From NCBI RefSeq assembly GCF_016592595.1, contig NZ_AP012977.1, positions 372,001 to 436,000 of the forward strand: 64,000 nt of DNA. Reading direction: 5' to 3'. The notes beneath the pieces were generated by a model, which did no database searches, was not told where the DNA came from, and saw only the letters and a program-made list of their open reading frames with translations. Numbering within the stretch: the stretch's first letter is position 1; the number at the start of each line of letters is the position of its first letter. Positions 16,477 through 20,359 of this stretch are shown here, in pieces. The DNA is from Abyssogena phaseoliformis symbiont OG214 (GTDB lineage: Bacteria > Pseudomonadota > Gammaproteobacteria > PS1 > Pseudothioglobaceae). A program made the translations under genes and the position numbers.

Positions 16477-17727
16477 ATGAGTTATCAACACATTCAAGTA
16501 CCCAAAAAGGGTGAAAAAATTAGCTTTGAAAAGGGTGTTATCAAAGTACCAAATTATCCAATTATTACTTATATTGAAGGGGATGGTATCGGTGCAGATG
16601 TGTCGCCAGTGATGAAAAAAGTGATTGATGCTATTGTTGCTAAAGCCTACAATGGTTCAAAAGCAATTCAATGGATGGATGTTTATGCAGGTGAGAGGGC
16701 AAATGATATTTATGGCGAATATTTACCACAAGAAACCTTGGATGCCATAGAAGAGTTTTCAGTGTCTATTAAAGGCCCATTAACCACGCCAGTAGGCGGC
16801 GGTATGCGTTCTTTGAATGTGGCTATTCGCCAAACGTTGGATTTGTTTATTTGCCAGCGTCCAGTTAAGTATTTTGAAGGCACGCCTTCGCCAGTCAAAG
16901 CGCCTGAAAAGATTGATATGGTTATTTTTAGAGAAAATTCTGAAGATATTTATGCAGGCATAGAATATCAGGAGGGTACTGCTGAGGTAAAAAAAATCAT
17001 TGATTTTTTACAAAATGAAATGGGCACGACAAAAATTCGTTTTCCCGACACTTCAGGAATTGGTATTAAGCCAGTATCAAAAGAAGGTACAAATCGTTTG
17101 GTACGTGCAGCCATTCAATATGCCATTGATAACGATAAAGATTCAGTAACCTTAGTACATAAAGGTAATATTATGAAATTCACCGAAGGTGGGTTTAGAG
17201 ATTGGGGCTATCAGTTGGCAAGTGATGAATTTGGTGCAACTATCGTTGATGATGGGCCGTGGAAATTATTTAAAAATCCAAATACAGGGACAATAATTAC
17301 GGTCAAAGATGTCATTGCAGATGCTTTTTTGCAACAAATTCTTTTGCGTCCCGAAGAGTATTCGGTTATTGCTACGCTTAACTTAAATGGTGATTATATT
17401 TCGGACGCATTGGCTGCCCAAGTGGGCGGTATTGGTATTGCGCCAGGTGCGAATCTTTCAGATACAACAGCCGTATTTGAAGCAACACACGGTACAGCGC
17501 CAAAGTATGCAGGACTTAATAAAGTTAATCCAGGTTCAATCATCCTTTCAGCAGAAATGATGCTTAGGCACATGGGTTGGCTTGAGGCGGCTGATATGAT
17601 TTTAGAGGCGATGTCTAATGTTATTCAAAATAAAACTGTCACCTATGATTTAGAAAGACTGATGGATGATGCGACATTATTGTCATGTTCTGAGTTTGGC
17701 GATGCAATCATTGATTCTATATTATAA
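16477..17727 (+). CDS. icd: Isocitrate dehydrogenase (NADP-dependent)
   Basis: TCA-cycle enzyme oxidising isocitrate to 2-oxoglutarate. The 416 aa protein matches the E. coli enzyme in length and closely in sequence: [11 protein letters not shown] at the N terminus, [17 protein letters not shown] with the substrate-binding serine and arginines, [50 protein letters not shown], and [16 protein letters not shown]. Lys and Tyr at the expected positions of these motifs indicate an NADP-type enzyme. It starts three bases after the rimI remnant. In autotrophs with an incomplete TCA cycle it serves glutamate synthesis; that role is inference. Confidence 0.97.
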
Positions 17728-17837: not shown

Positions 17838-18365
17838 ATGAAAAACGTAATAAAACTAGTGGCAATTGCTACAGTCGTAGCTACATCATCTGCATCAGCA
17901 TTTTGGAACAACAACGGTTATGGCAATAATAACAATGGCTGGGGTACTGGTAATGGTGGTTCTAACTGGGGTCCGTTTGATAGTGGCTCTAACTTTGGTC
18001 CAATGAATGGTGGTTCTAACTGGGGTCCTTTCTCAGGTGGTAACAACATGGGTCCAATGAATGGTGGTTCTAACTGGGGTCCATTTAATGGTGCTCAGAA
18101 TTGGGGCCCAATGTCAAACAATAACAATATGAACAATGATTCAGATTGGGGTTTTCATTATAATAATAAAAACACCACTAAAAACACATCTAATGCTTCA
18201 GTAGATGGCAATGCCACTGGCGTAGTTTCTGCAAATGCTAAAGCGCAAGCTGATGCTTATGTTAAAGGCGCGGCTGATGGTTTTGCTAAAGGCCAAGCTG
18301 ATGCTTATGCTAAAGGTTATGCAGATGGAAAGTCTGCAGGAAATGCTGACAGTAGAAGTCAATAA
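17838..18365 (+). CDS. Secreted repetitive Gly/Asn/Trp-rich protein, sulfur-globule-like (copy 1)
   Basis: A 175 aa exported protein behind a strong TTAGGAG site. A signal peptide (about residues 1-21, ending SASA) is followed by an Asn/Gly-rich stretch. Six 9-residue units come next: SNWGPFDSG, SNFGPMNGG, SNWGPFSGG, NNMGPMNGG, SNWGPFNGA, QNWGPMSNN. A linker NNDSDWGFHYNNKN leads to about four Ala-rich octads (AQADAYVK, GAADGFAK, GQADAYAK, GYADGKSA). No cysteines in the mature part. Small secreted Gly/Asn/aromatic-rich proteins coat periplasmic sulfur globules in sulfur oxidisers, and this resembles them in composition; the octad tail is less familiar. Function is therefore inference. A terminator follows. 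Confidence 0.8.
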   Translation: MKNVIKLVAIATVVATSSASAFWNNNGYGNNNNGWGTGNGGSNWGPFDSGSNFGPMNGGSNWGPFSGGNNMGPMNGGSNWGPFNGAQNWGPMSNNNNMNNDSDWGFHYNNKNTTKNTSNASVDGNATGVVSANAKAQADAYVKGAADGFAKGQADAYAKGYADGKSAGNADSRSQ

Positions 18366-18386
18366 CATTTTAGACAGCGTTAAATT

Positions 18387-18413
18387 AAAGCCACCCTAAA
18401 GGTGGCTTTTTTT
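18387..18413 (+). terminator. Rho-independent terminator after copy 1
   Basis: Perfect nine-pair stem AAAGCCACC / GGTGGCTTT with loop CTAAA, followed by a run of T. It lies 22 bases after the stop of the first repetitive secreted protein, so copies 1 and 2 are separate transcripts. The rest of the 339 bp gap before copy 2 is AT-rich and holds the copy 2 promoter. Confidence 0.9.
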
Positions 18414-18594
18414 GTCTCTACTACACTTACCATATGGGTTAATGATTAAATATTAGCTAAATTTTGAATATTTTTTGTCTAAGGTTTATCTTTTTTTCAC
18501 ACTTGATTTAATTTTTATTTTAGTAAAATGTTTTTAATAGAAGGAGTTATGAGGAGTTTTTATGGCTTCATTATTAATTTATATTATAATATCA

Positions 18595-18622
18595 TTGACT
18601 TCTAATATATTTACCATATAAT
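18595..18622 (+). promoter_or_regulatory. Strong sigma70-type promoter of the copy 2 secreted protein
   Basis: TTGACT (18595-18600), 16-base spacer, TATAAT (18617-18622). One mismatch in total to the consensus boxes. It would start transcription near 18629 and give a leader of about 75 bases before the ATG at 18705. This is the best-matching promoter in the window and suggests high expression of the second secreted protein. Confidence 0.75.
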
Positions 18623-18704
18623 ACCCCCATCAAGACCACAAAGTCTGATACCTAAAACCCGCTTAACAATAAGAGCGTTAATACTTTTAAATTTGGAGAT
18701 TAAT

Positions 18705-19229
18705 ATGAAAAAAATAATTGCGATTGCTACTTTAGTAGCGGCTACATCAGCATCAGCTGGTTTCTTTAACAATGGTTCAAACAACAACGGTTATGGCTAT
18801 GGTAACGGTGCTAATAATTGGGGTCCTTTTGACGGCGGTTCTAACTTTGGCCCAATGAATGGCGGTTCTAACTGGGGTCCTTTTAATGGTGGCAACAACA
18901 TGGGTCCTTTCAACGGCGGTTCAAATATGGGTCCTTTCAACGGCGCTAACAACTGGGGTCCTTTTTCAAACAACAACGACATGAACAACGATTCTGACTG
19001 GGGCTTCCATTACAACAACAAGAACAAAACTAAGAACATTTCTAATGCAACTGTTGATGGTCAATATGCAGGTACTGCTGATGCTAATGCTAAAGGTGTC
19101 GCTGATGCTTATGCCAAAGGCCAGGCTGATGCATTCGCTAAAGCACAAGCTGACGCTTATGCTAAAGGTTATGCAGATGCTAAAGCTAATGCATCAGTTG
19201 ACAGTCGTGATCAAGTGATTGCTAAGTAA
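18705..19229 (+). CDS. Secreted repetitive Gly/Asn/Trp-rich protein, sulfur-globule-like (copy 2)
   Basis: Paralogue of the preceding gene (174 aa). Signal peptide MKKIIAIATLVAATSASA, then an Asn/Gly/Tyr stretch and six 9-residue units: NNWGPFDGG, SNFGPMNGG, SNWGPFNGG, NNMGPFNGG, SNMGPFNGA, NNWGPFSNN. The linker is NNDSDWGFHYNNKN, and the tail has four octads (GVADAYAK, GQADAFAK, AQADAYAK, GYADAKAN). The start is the ATG at 18705 after TTGGAG; an in-frame TTG at 18693 is less likely. Codon use here is richer in C-ending Asn codons (AAC) than copy 1, consistent with high expression. Own promoter and own terminator. Sulfur-globule or surface-matrix role is inference. Confidence 0.82.
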   Translation: MKKIIAIATLVAATSASAGFFNNGSNNNGYGYGNGANNWGPFDGGSNFGPMNGGSNWGPFNGGNNMGPFNGGSNMGPFNGANNWGPFSNNNDMNNDSDWGFHYNNKNKTKNISNATVDGQYAGTADANAKGVADAYAKGQADAFAKAQADAYAKGYADAKANASVDSRDQVIAK

Positions 19230-19282
19230 AGACTTGGCCAATTGACTGCTGGGTTAATCTAGTAGTTTAAGGTTAAATAAAG

Positions 19283-19306
19283 ACCACCCTTTGGGGTGGT
19301 TTTTTT
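19283..19306 (+). terminator. Rho-independent terminator after copy 2
   Basis: Stem ACCACCC / GGGTGGT with a four-base loop, then a run of seven T. It lies 53 bases after the copy 2 stop codon and closes that monocistronic unit. Confidence 0.88.
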
Positions 19307-19391
19307 GCGCTTGAATAAATTTTTGGTAGTGCTAATTAAAATATAGCTATATTTTTTAGATTTTATTTTTTTATGAGATCTTTACATAATT

Positions 19392-19671
19392 ATGAAAATA
19401 ATTAATACAAACATTGGTAATTGCGACAGTAGTCGTAGCAACTTCAGTATCAGCTAACTAAGGTTCTTTTTCAGGCGGTAACAATTAATGGCATGTCTAA
19501 TATGAACCCATTTTCAAATAGTAACGATATGAATAATGATTCTGATTGGGATTTTTATTACAACAATAAAAATTCTACTAAAAATATTTCTAATGCTTCA
19601 GAAAGACCAATGTTTATGCCAAAGGTTATGAGGATGAAAAATCTAATGCTATGCTAGGTTTTAGAGAGTAA
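19392..19671 (+). pseudogene. Decayed third copy of the repetitive secreted protein
   Basis: The ATG at 19392 runs into a stop, but the next frame reads LVIATVVVATSVSAN, the signal peptide of the family, followed by a stop and GSFSGGNN. Further on, NPFSNSNDMNNDSDWDFYYN then NKNSTKNISNAS matches the conserved linker. The 9-residue repeat block has collapsed to almost nothing, and only a scrap of the octad tail (AKGYEDEKSNA, after a frame change) remains. Deletions plus frameshifts; clearly dead. It shows that the tandem array once had more working members. Confidence 0.8.
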
Positions 19672-19731
19672 TATTATGTTTCTCCAGTTTCAATATCTGC
19701 GATAAAATAATTATTCATCATGATTAATTAA

Positions 19732-19753
19732 AGGGGCAATTGTGCCTTTTTTG
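19732..19753 (+). terminator. Terminator after the third copy
   Basis: Stem AAAGGGGCA / TGCCTTTTTT around loop ATTG, with two G-T pairs, followed by more T. It keeps the place that terminators hold after copies 1 and 2, supporting the idea that each copy was an independent transcription unit. Confidence 0.65.
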
Positions 19754-19828
19754 TTTAATTCAAAAAAGGCGTATAATGCGTTATAGTGTAGTTTTTGGCA
19801 TATCTAAAGATATGAGTATAAAAAAACA

Positions 19829-20209
19829 ATGATAAGAATATTTTTGAGTTTAGTTTTATTGGTTTCAACTGTTGTAAATGCCACTTCTTAGACGCATTGG
19901 AACGGTAGCAGTAACGGCTTAGTCAACTCTTGGACGCCGCTTAACCGTGTAAATGACTTTGTGAATGATTCTGATTCTGACTCTGATTGGGGTTTTTATT
20001 ATAAGAATAAGAATTCAAGTGATAATAAGGGTTATGCTAGAGCGAATGCATAATATGCAGGCGAGTTAAGAAAACGCATTATGAGGCGCATAAATGGCTA
20101 CACTAAGAACAATACAAATACTTATTACAAAGGTCAATTTGAAAATTATGGCAAAAGGGGTGCTTAGGTTTACACCCCTAGCAATAACTTTTTAGTGCCA
20201 CCATACTAA
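19829..20209 (+). pseudogene. Decayed fourth, divergent copy of the secreted protein
   Basis: From ATG 19829 one frame runs to TAA 20207 with only three in-frame stops (TAG, TAA, TAG) and no frameshift. The signal peptide is MIRIFLSLVLLVSTVVNA. The mature part has THWNGSSNGLVNSWTPLN, the family linker DSDSDWGFYYKNKN, then a Lys/Tyr/Asn tail GYTKNNTNTYYKGQFENYG and final VYTPSNNFLVPPY. It shares the signal and linker with copies 1 and 2 but lacks their 9-residue and octad repeats. A TATAAT box at 19772-19777 is a candidate promoter. A gene dead by point nonsense only implies recent inactivation. Confidence 0.72.
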
Positions 20210-20283: not shown

Positions 20284-20359
20284 TCCTCGATAGCTCAGTT
20301 GGTAGAGCAATGGACTGTTAATCCATTTGTCGCTGGTTCGAGCCCAGCTCGAGGAGCCA
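20284..20359 (+). tRNA. tRNA-Asn (anticodon GTT)
   Basis: Full cloverleaf: acceptor TCCTCGA / TCGAGGA, D arm GCTCAGTTGGTAGAGC, anticodon arm TGGACTGTTAATCCA with GTT, T arm CTGGTTCGAGCCCAG, and encoded CCA at 20357-20359. Sequence close to E. coli tRNA-Asn. A decayed integrative element begins about 60 bases downstream, the usual arrangement for integration at a tRNA 3' end. Confidence 0.97.

Follow-up and report, generated by a model that had tools for sequence, protein, structure and literature searches.

In oxygen-poor seas and at vents, dark carbon fixation is driven by bacteria of the SUP05 group and their symbiotic relatives, whose sulfur stores buffer this process. Sulfur globules are a distinguishing trait of the SUP05 clade (PMC9123188). 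The closest described systems are the sulfur globule proteins (Sgp) of purple sulfur bacteria; in Allochromatium vinosum, the sgp genes have their own promoter and terminator, and the proteins have regularly spaced prolines (PMC10386293). For Candidatus Thioglobus autotrophicus EF1, periplasmic sulfur globules, 4 putative sgp genes, and 3 Sgp proteins detected by proteomics have been described (PMC6509183), and sgp genes in other symbionts are the subject of PMC7580541 and PMC13137333. Phage-borne dsrC is known in SUP05, and the sulfur genes described in phages include dsrC, dsrA, and soxYZ (PMC4164917, PMC8190135). Here, we analyze a 64,000-nucleotide stretch of the Abyssogena phaseoliformis symbiont OG214 (NZ_AP012977.1, positions 372,001–436,000; hereafter, the window), in which 4 neighboring genes (copies 1–4) encode, or once encoded, small secreted repeat proteins. 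Copies 1 and 2 are intact, and we consider it likely, from sequence and distribution, that their products coat periplasmic sulfur globules, as Sgp do in purple sulfur bacteria.

Architecture and distribution of the repeat family

Copies 1 and 2, which we designate types B and A, respectively (Table 1), share 3 modules behind the signal peptide and an N/G-rich lead: (i) 6 nonads of the pattern [S/N/Q]N[W/F/M]GP[F/M]; (ii) the linker NNDSDWGFHYNNKN; and (iii) about 4 octads and a partial fifth. The repeats are visible in the DNA as periods of 27/54 and 24/48 base pairs (bp), with Tandem Repeats Finder scores of up to 194 (threshold 50). The original prediction gave each copy exactly six 9-mers and four [G/A]xADAxAK octads. 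The nonad count holds for both copies, but the octad count is strict for copy 2 only, because 2 octads of copy 1 are degenerate (GVVSANAK and AQADAYVK). We no longer regard the octad tail as a separate module, since every one of the 29 aligned host proteins of types A and B has at least 3 octad-like units, and all 8 distinct phage proteins described below have at least 1. In these 29 host proteins, 180 nonads were gathered with an N-x-G-P pattern, which fixes the anchor letters; W occupies position 3 in 100 of them and F occupies position 6 in 149, and the proline at position 5 (180/180) is built into the collecting pattern, although its 9-residue spacing is visible. Among 139 octads, gathered with an A-D-A-like pattern that likewise fixes its anchor letters, the first residue is G in 115. 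Cysteine is absent from position 21 onward in 55 aligned proteins.

An N-terminal export signal, judged by eye, is evident in the translations of all fully read members and coincides with an AlphaFold helix at residues 4–14. For the host form, AlphaFold predicted no fold (mean predicted local distance difference test score (pLDDT) 41.4) and a helix at residues 127–163 that spans the octads. Both genes are under purifying selection: the ratio of nonsynonymous to synonymous substitution rates (dN/dS) is 0.07 and 0.11 for copy 1 against the copies of 2 relatives, and 0.07–0.18 for copy 2 against the site-1 copies of 5 relatives (site 1 being the position of the cluster). Neither Pfam nor NCBIfam has a model for the family architecture, and matches to these databases and to PHROGs are sub-threshold or absent. 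The best match of the octads, to FliH (NCBIfam NF004270; 24.3 bits, E 2e-5), is far under the 180-bit cut-off, and we rejected it as a low-complexity resemblance. The motif letters of the family do not occur in the literature text searched, and a literature search on repeats and asparagine returned unrelated papers only.

A search of 58 genomes gave matches in 36 at E values of up to 1. Strong matches (best E at most 1e-45) were found in 30 genomes, all belonging to the window's own taxonomic family (37 genomes); the 6 weak matches are G015, inside that family, and 5 genomes outside it. Within the taxonomic family, the repeat proteins follow dsrA, being present in 30 of the 32 dsrA-positive genomes and in none of the 5 dsrA-negative ones (Fisher 4.8e-5, uncorrected for phylogeny); G016 and G027, which carry dsrA in pieces, are counted as positive. 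Members of the taxonomic family that lack a strong match are G012, G022, G029, and G033 (genus g2) and G019 (g9), in all of which dsrA is missing, together with G025 (g5) and G015; a profile search of these 7 genomes gave nothing better than E 0.01. Among 369 gammaproteobacterial genomes, 117 of which carry dsrA, the repeat family was found in 5, namely, 4 of the same taxonomic family and, weakly, G254 (E 4.1e-7). The records behind our 65 loci comprise Thioglobus, Ruthia, Vesicomyosocius, Ruthturnera, Thiodubiliella, Bathymodiolus symbionts, and SUP05 scaffolds, as well as metagenome-assembled genomes whose titles stop at class level or name another family (one Piscirickettsiaceae). Within what was searched, the repeat family appears special to the SUP05/Thioglobus/Ruthia group, with phages besides. 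It is kept in all four 1.0-Mb genomes (2 named Vesicomyosocius), and 7 site-1 pairs have dN/dS values of 0.03–0.18.

The sulfur globule inference of the original prediction gains from this co-distribution with dsrA and from G030, probably the genome of EF1, which holds 4 intact A/B genes and 1 type C gene (a third type, described below); homologues are therefore not limited to organisms that store no sulfur, which the original prediction had named as a refutation, and the role itself stays at likely. The EF1 genes named sgp (PMC6509183) are probably these A/B genes, the agreement of 4 with 4 being no more than suggestive. Several points weigh against a globule coat. Once the signal peptide is removed, profile comparison with Chromatiaceae-type proteins is weak (E 0.052, probability 1%). 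The dsrA-negative genomes represent only 2 genera or lineages (g2 and g9) and therefore few independent events, so that the Fisher value overstates the evidence. G025 carries dsrA without a family member, and G015 has a 35-residue dsrA fragment and a weak match only, both genomes being 86–87% complete. None of the 113 dsrA-positive gammaproteobacterial genomes outside the taxonomic family matches at 1e-5, and the repeat family is therefore no general marker of sulfur storage.

We propose that these proteins, which are cysteine-free and rich in Gly, Asn, and aromatic residues, would be exported by the Sec route to the periplasm, where the unfolded WGPF nonads would act as weakly sticky repeats that build a flexible layer over the sulfur. 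The core contact of the family may be the invariant TDFG-type linker, and the Ala/Gly octads may form a helix that mediates pairing between adjacent chains. As coat subunits, the products of genes A, B, and C would overlap in part, a redundancy under which the loss of single genes, as in copies 3 and 4, would be tolerated. Such an unmodeled coat family could serve as a marker for sulfur storage within this group and as a handle on the coat content that is required.

Miniature forms on phage contigs

In IMG/VR, the host profile found 10 loci (L160–L169, e.g., L162:3001-3414), and the phage profile found the same 10 contigs and 1 partial new one (L200). The gene is identical on 3 contigs from a single sample, which leaves 8 distinct full-length proteins of 108–137 residues. 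Each has a signal peptide, 2 to 4 nonad-like units, NDTDFGFNFNTKNK, and 1 or 2 octads; nonads, linker, and octads are thus the parts kept. All 8 are free of stops, and their best host matches have 43–71% identity over 63–158 residues. The phage genes have dN/dS values of 0.14–0.40 (28 pairs, with many synonymous sites near saturation). As for the host protein, AlphaFold predicted no fold for a phage form (mean pLDDT 44.7), with helices at residues 99–122 and 127–135.

Genes for a major head protein and a tail tube lie beside the family gene in L167, and G404 carries genes for a single-strand binding protein, SbcC/SbcD, a primase, and helicases (T4-like replication) and a weak tail-fiber match. 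Other contigs carry viral-type genes for PhoH, DNA ligase, purM, an exonuclease, and a ClpP-like protease; G405, G406, and G408 were judged viral by their similarity to G404 only. DsrC genes score over the cut-off on 4 of the 10 phage contigs, twice on each of 3, and TusA is encoded on L161. NifU/IscU-like, Fe–S biosynthesis, and glutaredoxin proteins are encoded in G404, and a run of such genes adjoins dsrC in a phage contig (L203:14737-16017).

These contigs combine viral genes with an intact host-gene relative under constraint, which are two of the features of phage auxiliary metabolic genes. We tentatively propose, with slightly less than even confidence, that phages of SUP05-type bacteria carry miniature globule coat proteins and a second globule-like family, next to dsrC, tusA, and Fe–S assembly genes, and that they remodel or open the sulfur store of the infected host with them; this would be the first known phage auxiliary gene for a storage-granule coat. 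The phage protein may act on the globules, and phages that bring their own coat protein may, if the proposal is true, act on the fuel reserve itself as well as on how it is oxidized. One phage protein had no match among 50,697 GenBank phage records, and no report of globule proteins in phages was found in the literature searched, including the passages seen of PMC8190135 and PMC12426252.

Two other readings would place these proteins at the cell surface. The whole family could have a structural function at the cell surface or in an extracellular matrix, as an adhesive or as a sheet beneath the S-layer, and not on globules. Secreted adhesives would also account for a signal peptide followed by low-complexity Gly/Asn/aromatic repeats and for the lack of a stable AlphaFold fold (mean pLDDT 41), and an S-layer has been described in these bacteria (PMC6509183). 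However, the distribution of the family tracks dsrA, and dsrC and tusA are found on contigs with the phage forms. Moreover, the constraint is strong in the 1.0-Mb genomes, which we take to be those of clam symbionts that live inside cells and hardly require a matrix. The extracellular matrix alternative in the original prediction obtained no positive support, and we regard a surface or matrix role of the family as improbable. The phage forms alone could be cell-surface morons, for example, blocking further infection, and not sulfur tools. In 7 of the 8 distinct loci, an open reading frame (ORF) of approximately 275–293 residues that is porin-like by eye lies beside the phage gene (L160:3441-4316, L163:1949-2824, L166:3361-4236, and others; the one tested had no Pfam or PHROGs match), as would suit a moron. 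Yet all 3 host modules are kept under purifying selection, dsrC occurs on 4 of the 10 contigs and tusA on one, and a second host globule-like family (described next) is found on 16 phage loci. We hold the moron reading to be unlikely and keep, tentatively, the interpretation of the phage forms as miniature coat proteins.

Two further secreted families were met alongside. The second family (..FGxNPYxFxxPRW..EE..DEFD..) is rich in Trp, Asn, and Gly and globule-like, has 143 residues in EF1, and is without a Pfam or NCBIfam model. It was found in 30 of the 58 genomes (at 0.01) and in 16 viral loci, for instance, at L084:1866-2297, L049:1265-1618, L162:263-550, and approximately 734,300–735,060 of G000:C1; both families occur together on the 3 sister contigs and on 3300048641_000199. 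The third family (PSNWL.xTDF motif, 130–190 residues) lies near type A genes, partly adjoining a DUF1302 outer-membrane-type gene (L083:3426-3986, L057:2241-2753, L075:1725-2291, and L044:3235-3645).

Twin cassettes, transcription signals, and degraded copies

Copy 2, its promoter, and its terminator form a cassette that recurs at a second site, at about 1,531,400–1,532,040 of G000:C1 (L035:6313-7043), beside tsf/rpsB and close to the opposite end of the 1,542,177-bp contig. The match begins just before the promoter and ends at the terminator, and the protein at the second site is identical to copy 2. Both sites are present in 10 genomes of the genus. In the 5 that carry recA, the twins are 99.73% (731 bp), 99.67% (606 bp), 100% (742 bp), 99.85% (681 bp), and 99.28% (557 bp) identical, whereas in the 5 that lack recA the values are 86.99%, 88.82%, 79.67–85.84% (in pieces), 83.95%, and 85.88%; one of the latter, G003, retains a 36-residue recA remnant with stops. 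Site 1 is flanked in all 10 genomes by icd, which we take, from its sequence, to be an isocitrate dehydrogenase-type gene; site 2 is flanked by tsf in 9, and the tenth keeps other remnants of the site-2 flank. In the tree, the copies pair by genome in the recA-positive genomes and by site in the 4 recA-negative 1.0-Mb genomes. In addition, the site-1 genes of G002 and G011 (L038:2882-3421 and L055:2924-3463) are hybrids of a type B start and a type A body, which suggests conversion that ended inside the gene, this being the mark expected of it.

These patterns suggest that the twin cassettes are kept alike by RecA-dependent gene conversion. Recent fresh duplications would also produce near-identity in the recA-positive genomes, and identity alone fits the two alike; nevertheless, the flanks of both sites are kept across 10 genomes, the 2 hybrid genes are present, and pairing is by genome with recA but by site in the 1.0-Mb clade, so that we consider duplication improbable. 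Two results speak against a simple role of RecA in such conversion. The icd tree groups all recA-negative genomes (support 0.947), which therefore possibly reflect a single loss event, whereas separate recA losses have been described (PMC3202245). In G003, the synonymous divergence (dS) between the 2 copies (0.417) exceeds that between G003 and G000 at site 1 (0.357), and conversion there may therefore have ended before recA was lost. PMC3202245 argues that the depletion of long repeats preceded the loss of recA; the two-site cassette is an exception. It offers a natural experiment on RecA keeping gene copies alike in shrinking symbiont genomes.

The promoter scan alone proves nothing (27 matches versus 18.2 expected). 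The near-consensus promoter predicted for copy 2 is nevertheless backed by conservation, since its -35 and -10 elements are also present in 15 of 21 type A upstream regions of the genus; of the other 6, 4 (site 1 of the 1.0-Mb genomes) keep TATAAT only, and 2 belong to the hybrid genes, which have the copy-1 upstream region. Terminator-like hairpins follow copies 1, 2, and 3, and none was found after copy 4, so that the claim of a terminator for each unit stands for 3 of the 4. Copy 3, described originally as having lost the repeats, does retain a last octad remnant, YAKGYEDEKS, but its damage goes beyond repeat loss to frameshifts and stops; part of it was matched at 391484-391600. The 3 nonsense codons reported for copy 4 were confirmed, but this copy is a dead type C gene and not a relic of genes such as copies 1 and 2. 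Its tail (GYARA..YAGELRKR..YYKGQ) is that of a separate paralogue of approximately 200 residues, type C, whose tail reads GYARAD.KY.GEL..YYKGQ..GYG..G..GY.P. Among the loci read, type C is intact in L068, L076, L079, L082, L088, and L094 and shortened in L055. The assignment of copy 4 to type C implies that the cluster once held at least 2 kinds of gene, not 4 copies of one.

Table 1. Features of the repeat gene cluster and its flanks (positions in the window).
Feature	Positions	Strand	Remarks
Isocitrate dehydrogenase-type gene	16477..17727	+	Flank; upstream neighbor at site 1
Copy 1 (type B)	17838..18365	+	Intact ORF, 175 residues: signal peptide, 6 nonads, DSDWGF linker, about 4 octads
Terminator-like hairpin, copy 1	18387..18409	+	Hairpin scan
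Cassette (promoter, copy 2, terminator)	18576..19306	+	731 bp, 99.73% (2 mismatches) to second site
Promoter-like TTGACT-16-TATAAT, copy 2	18595..18622	+	11/12 consensus match
Copy 2 (type A)	18705..19229	+	Intact ORF, 174 residues counted from ATG; same 3 modules as copy 1
Terminator-like hairpin, copy 2	19283..19300	+	Followed by plus-strand T-run; listed by the scan on the minus strand
Copy 3	19393..19672 (about)	+	Type A/B pseudogene; signal peptide, linker, and octad remnant in different frames, with stops
Terminator-like hairpin after copy 3	19730..19751	+	Hairpin scan
Copy 4	19829..20209	+	Type C pseudogene; single frame, exactly 3 internal stop codons
tRNA-Asn (gtt)	20284..20359	+	Flank

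Relation to described globule proteins and phage sulfur genes

The family could be truly homologous to Chromatiaceae-type globule proteins and deserve to be filed with them. The bridge protein of G254, matched by the A1 profile (E 4.1e-7), finds Gly/Tyr-rich secreted proteins, which we take to resemble Chromatiaceae Sgp, in 9 of the 369 gammaproteobacterial genomes; 7 of these 9 carry dsrA, compared with 117 of 369 overall (Fisher 0.0055, related genomes not corrected). In 2 members of this set (L229 and L234), WWGPFD stands directly after the signal. With the signal peptide removed, the best profile match is the linker, with a score of 17.84 that none of 60 column shuffles reached (maximum 16.28). 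That match, however, has only an E of 0.052 and a probability of 1%, and among 11 aligned Gly/Tyr-rich proteins, which are Chromatiaceae-type look-alikes and not reference A. vinosum Sgp sequences, nonad-like units occur in none and octad-like units in 1. The A1–A4 profile match (96.5%) was rejected as a sign of homology, as it consists of the signal peptide and adjoining low complexity. Homology at the linker is only suggested; we lean against common descent and do not file the family as homologous.

The octads and the N-terminal GxxxG-type repeats of FliH (NF004270) are both Ala/Gly-periodic and probably helical. The phage forms are similar to the phage sulfur auxiliary genes of PMC4164917 and PMC8190135 in that phages of SUP05-type hosts carry host-like sulfur genes, several contigs bearing dsrC. 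They differ from dsrC, dsrA, and soxYZ in encoding what appears to be an exported, structural, storage-coat-like protein and no enzyme or carrier, a kind of gene that is unnamed in the passages seen of those papers. For the sgp genes of EF1, the main text of PMC6509183, so far as seen, gives no motif, architecture, or phage link with which this family could be compared. The likeness to SgpA, SgpB, SgpC, and SgpD of A. vinosum and their Chromatiaceae-type relatives extends to (i) small, secreted, repetitive proteins with regularly spaced prolines; (ii) several paralogues; (iii) own promoter and terminator (PMC10386293), known here as sequence signals only; and (iv) a tie to dsr-type sulfur oxidation. 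By contrast, the present family has WGPF nonads and ADAxAKGQ octads where those proteins have Gly/Tyr runs, and it is confined, in what was searched, to a single bacterial family and to phages.

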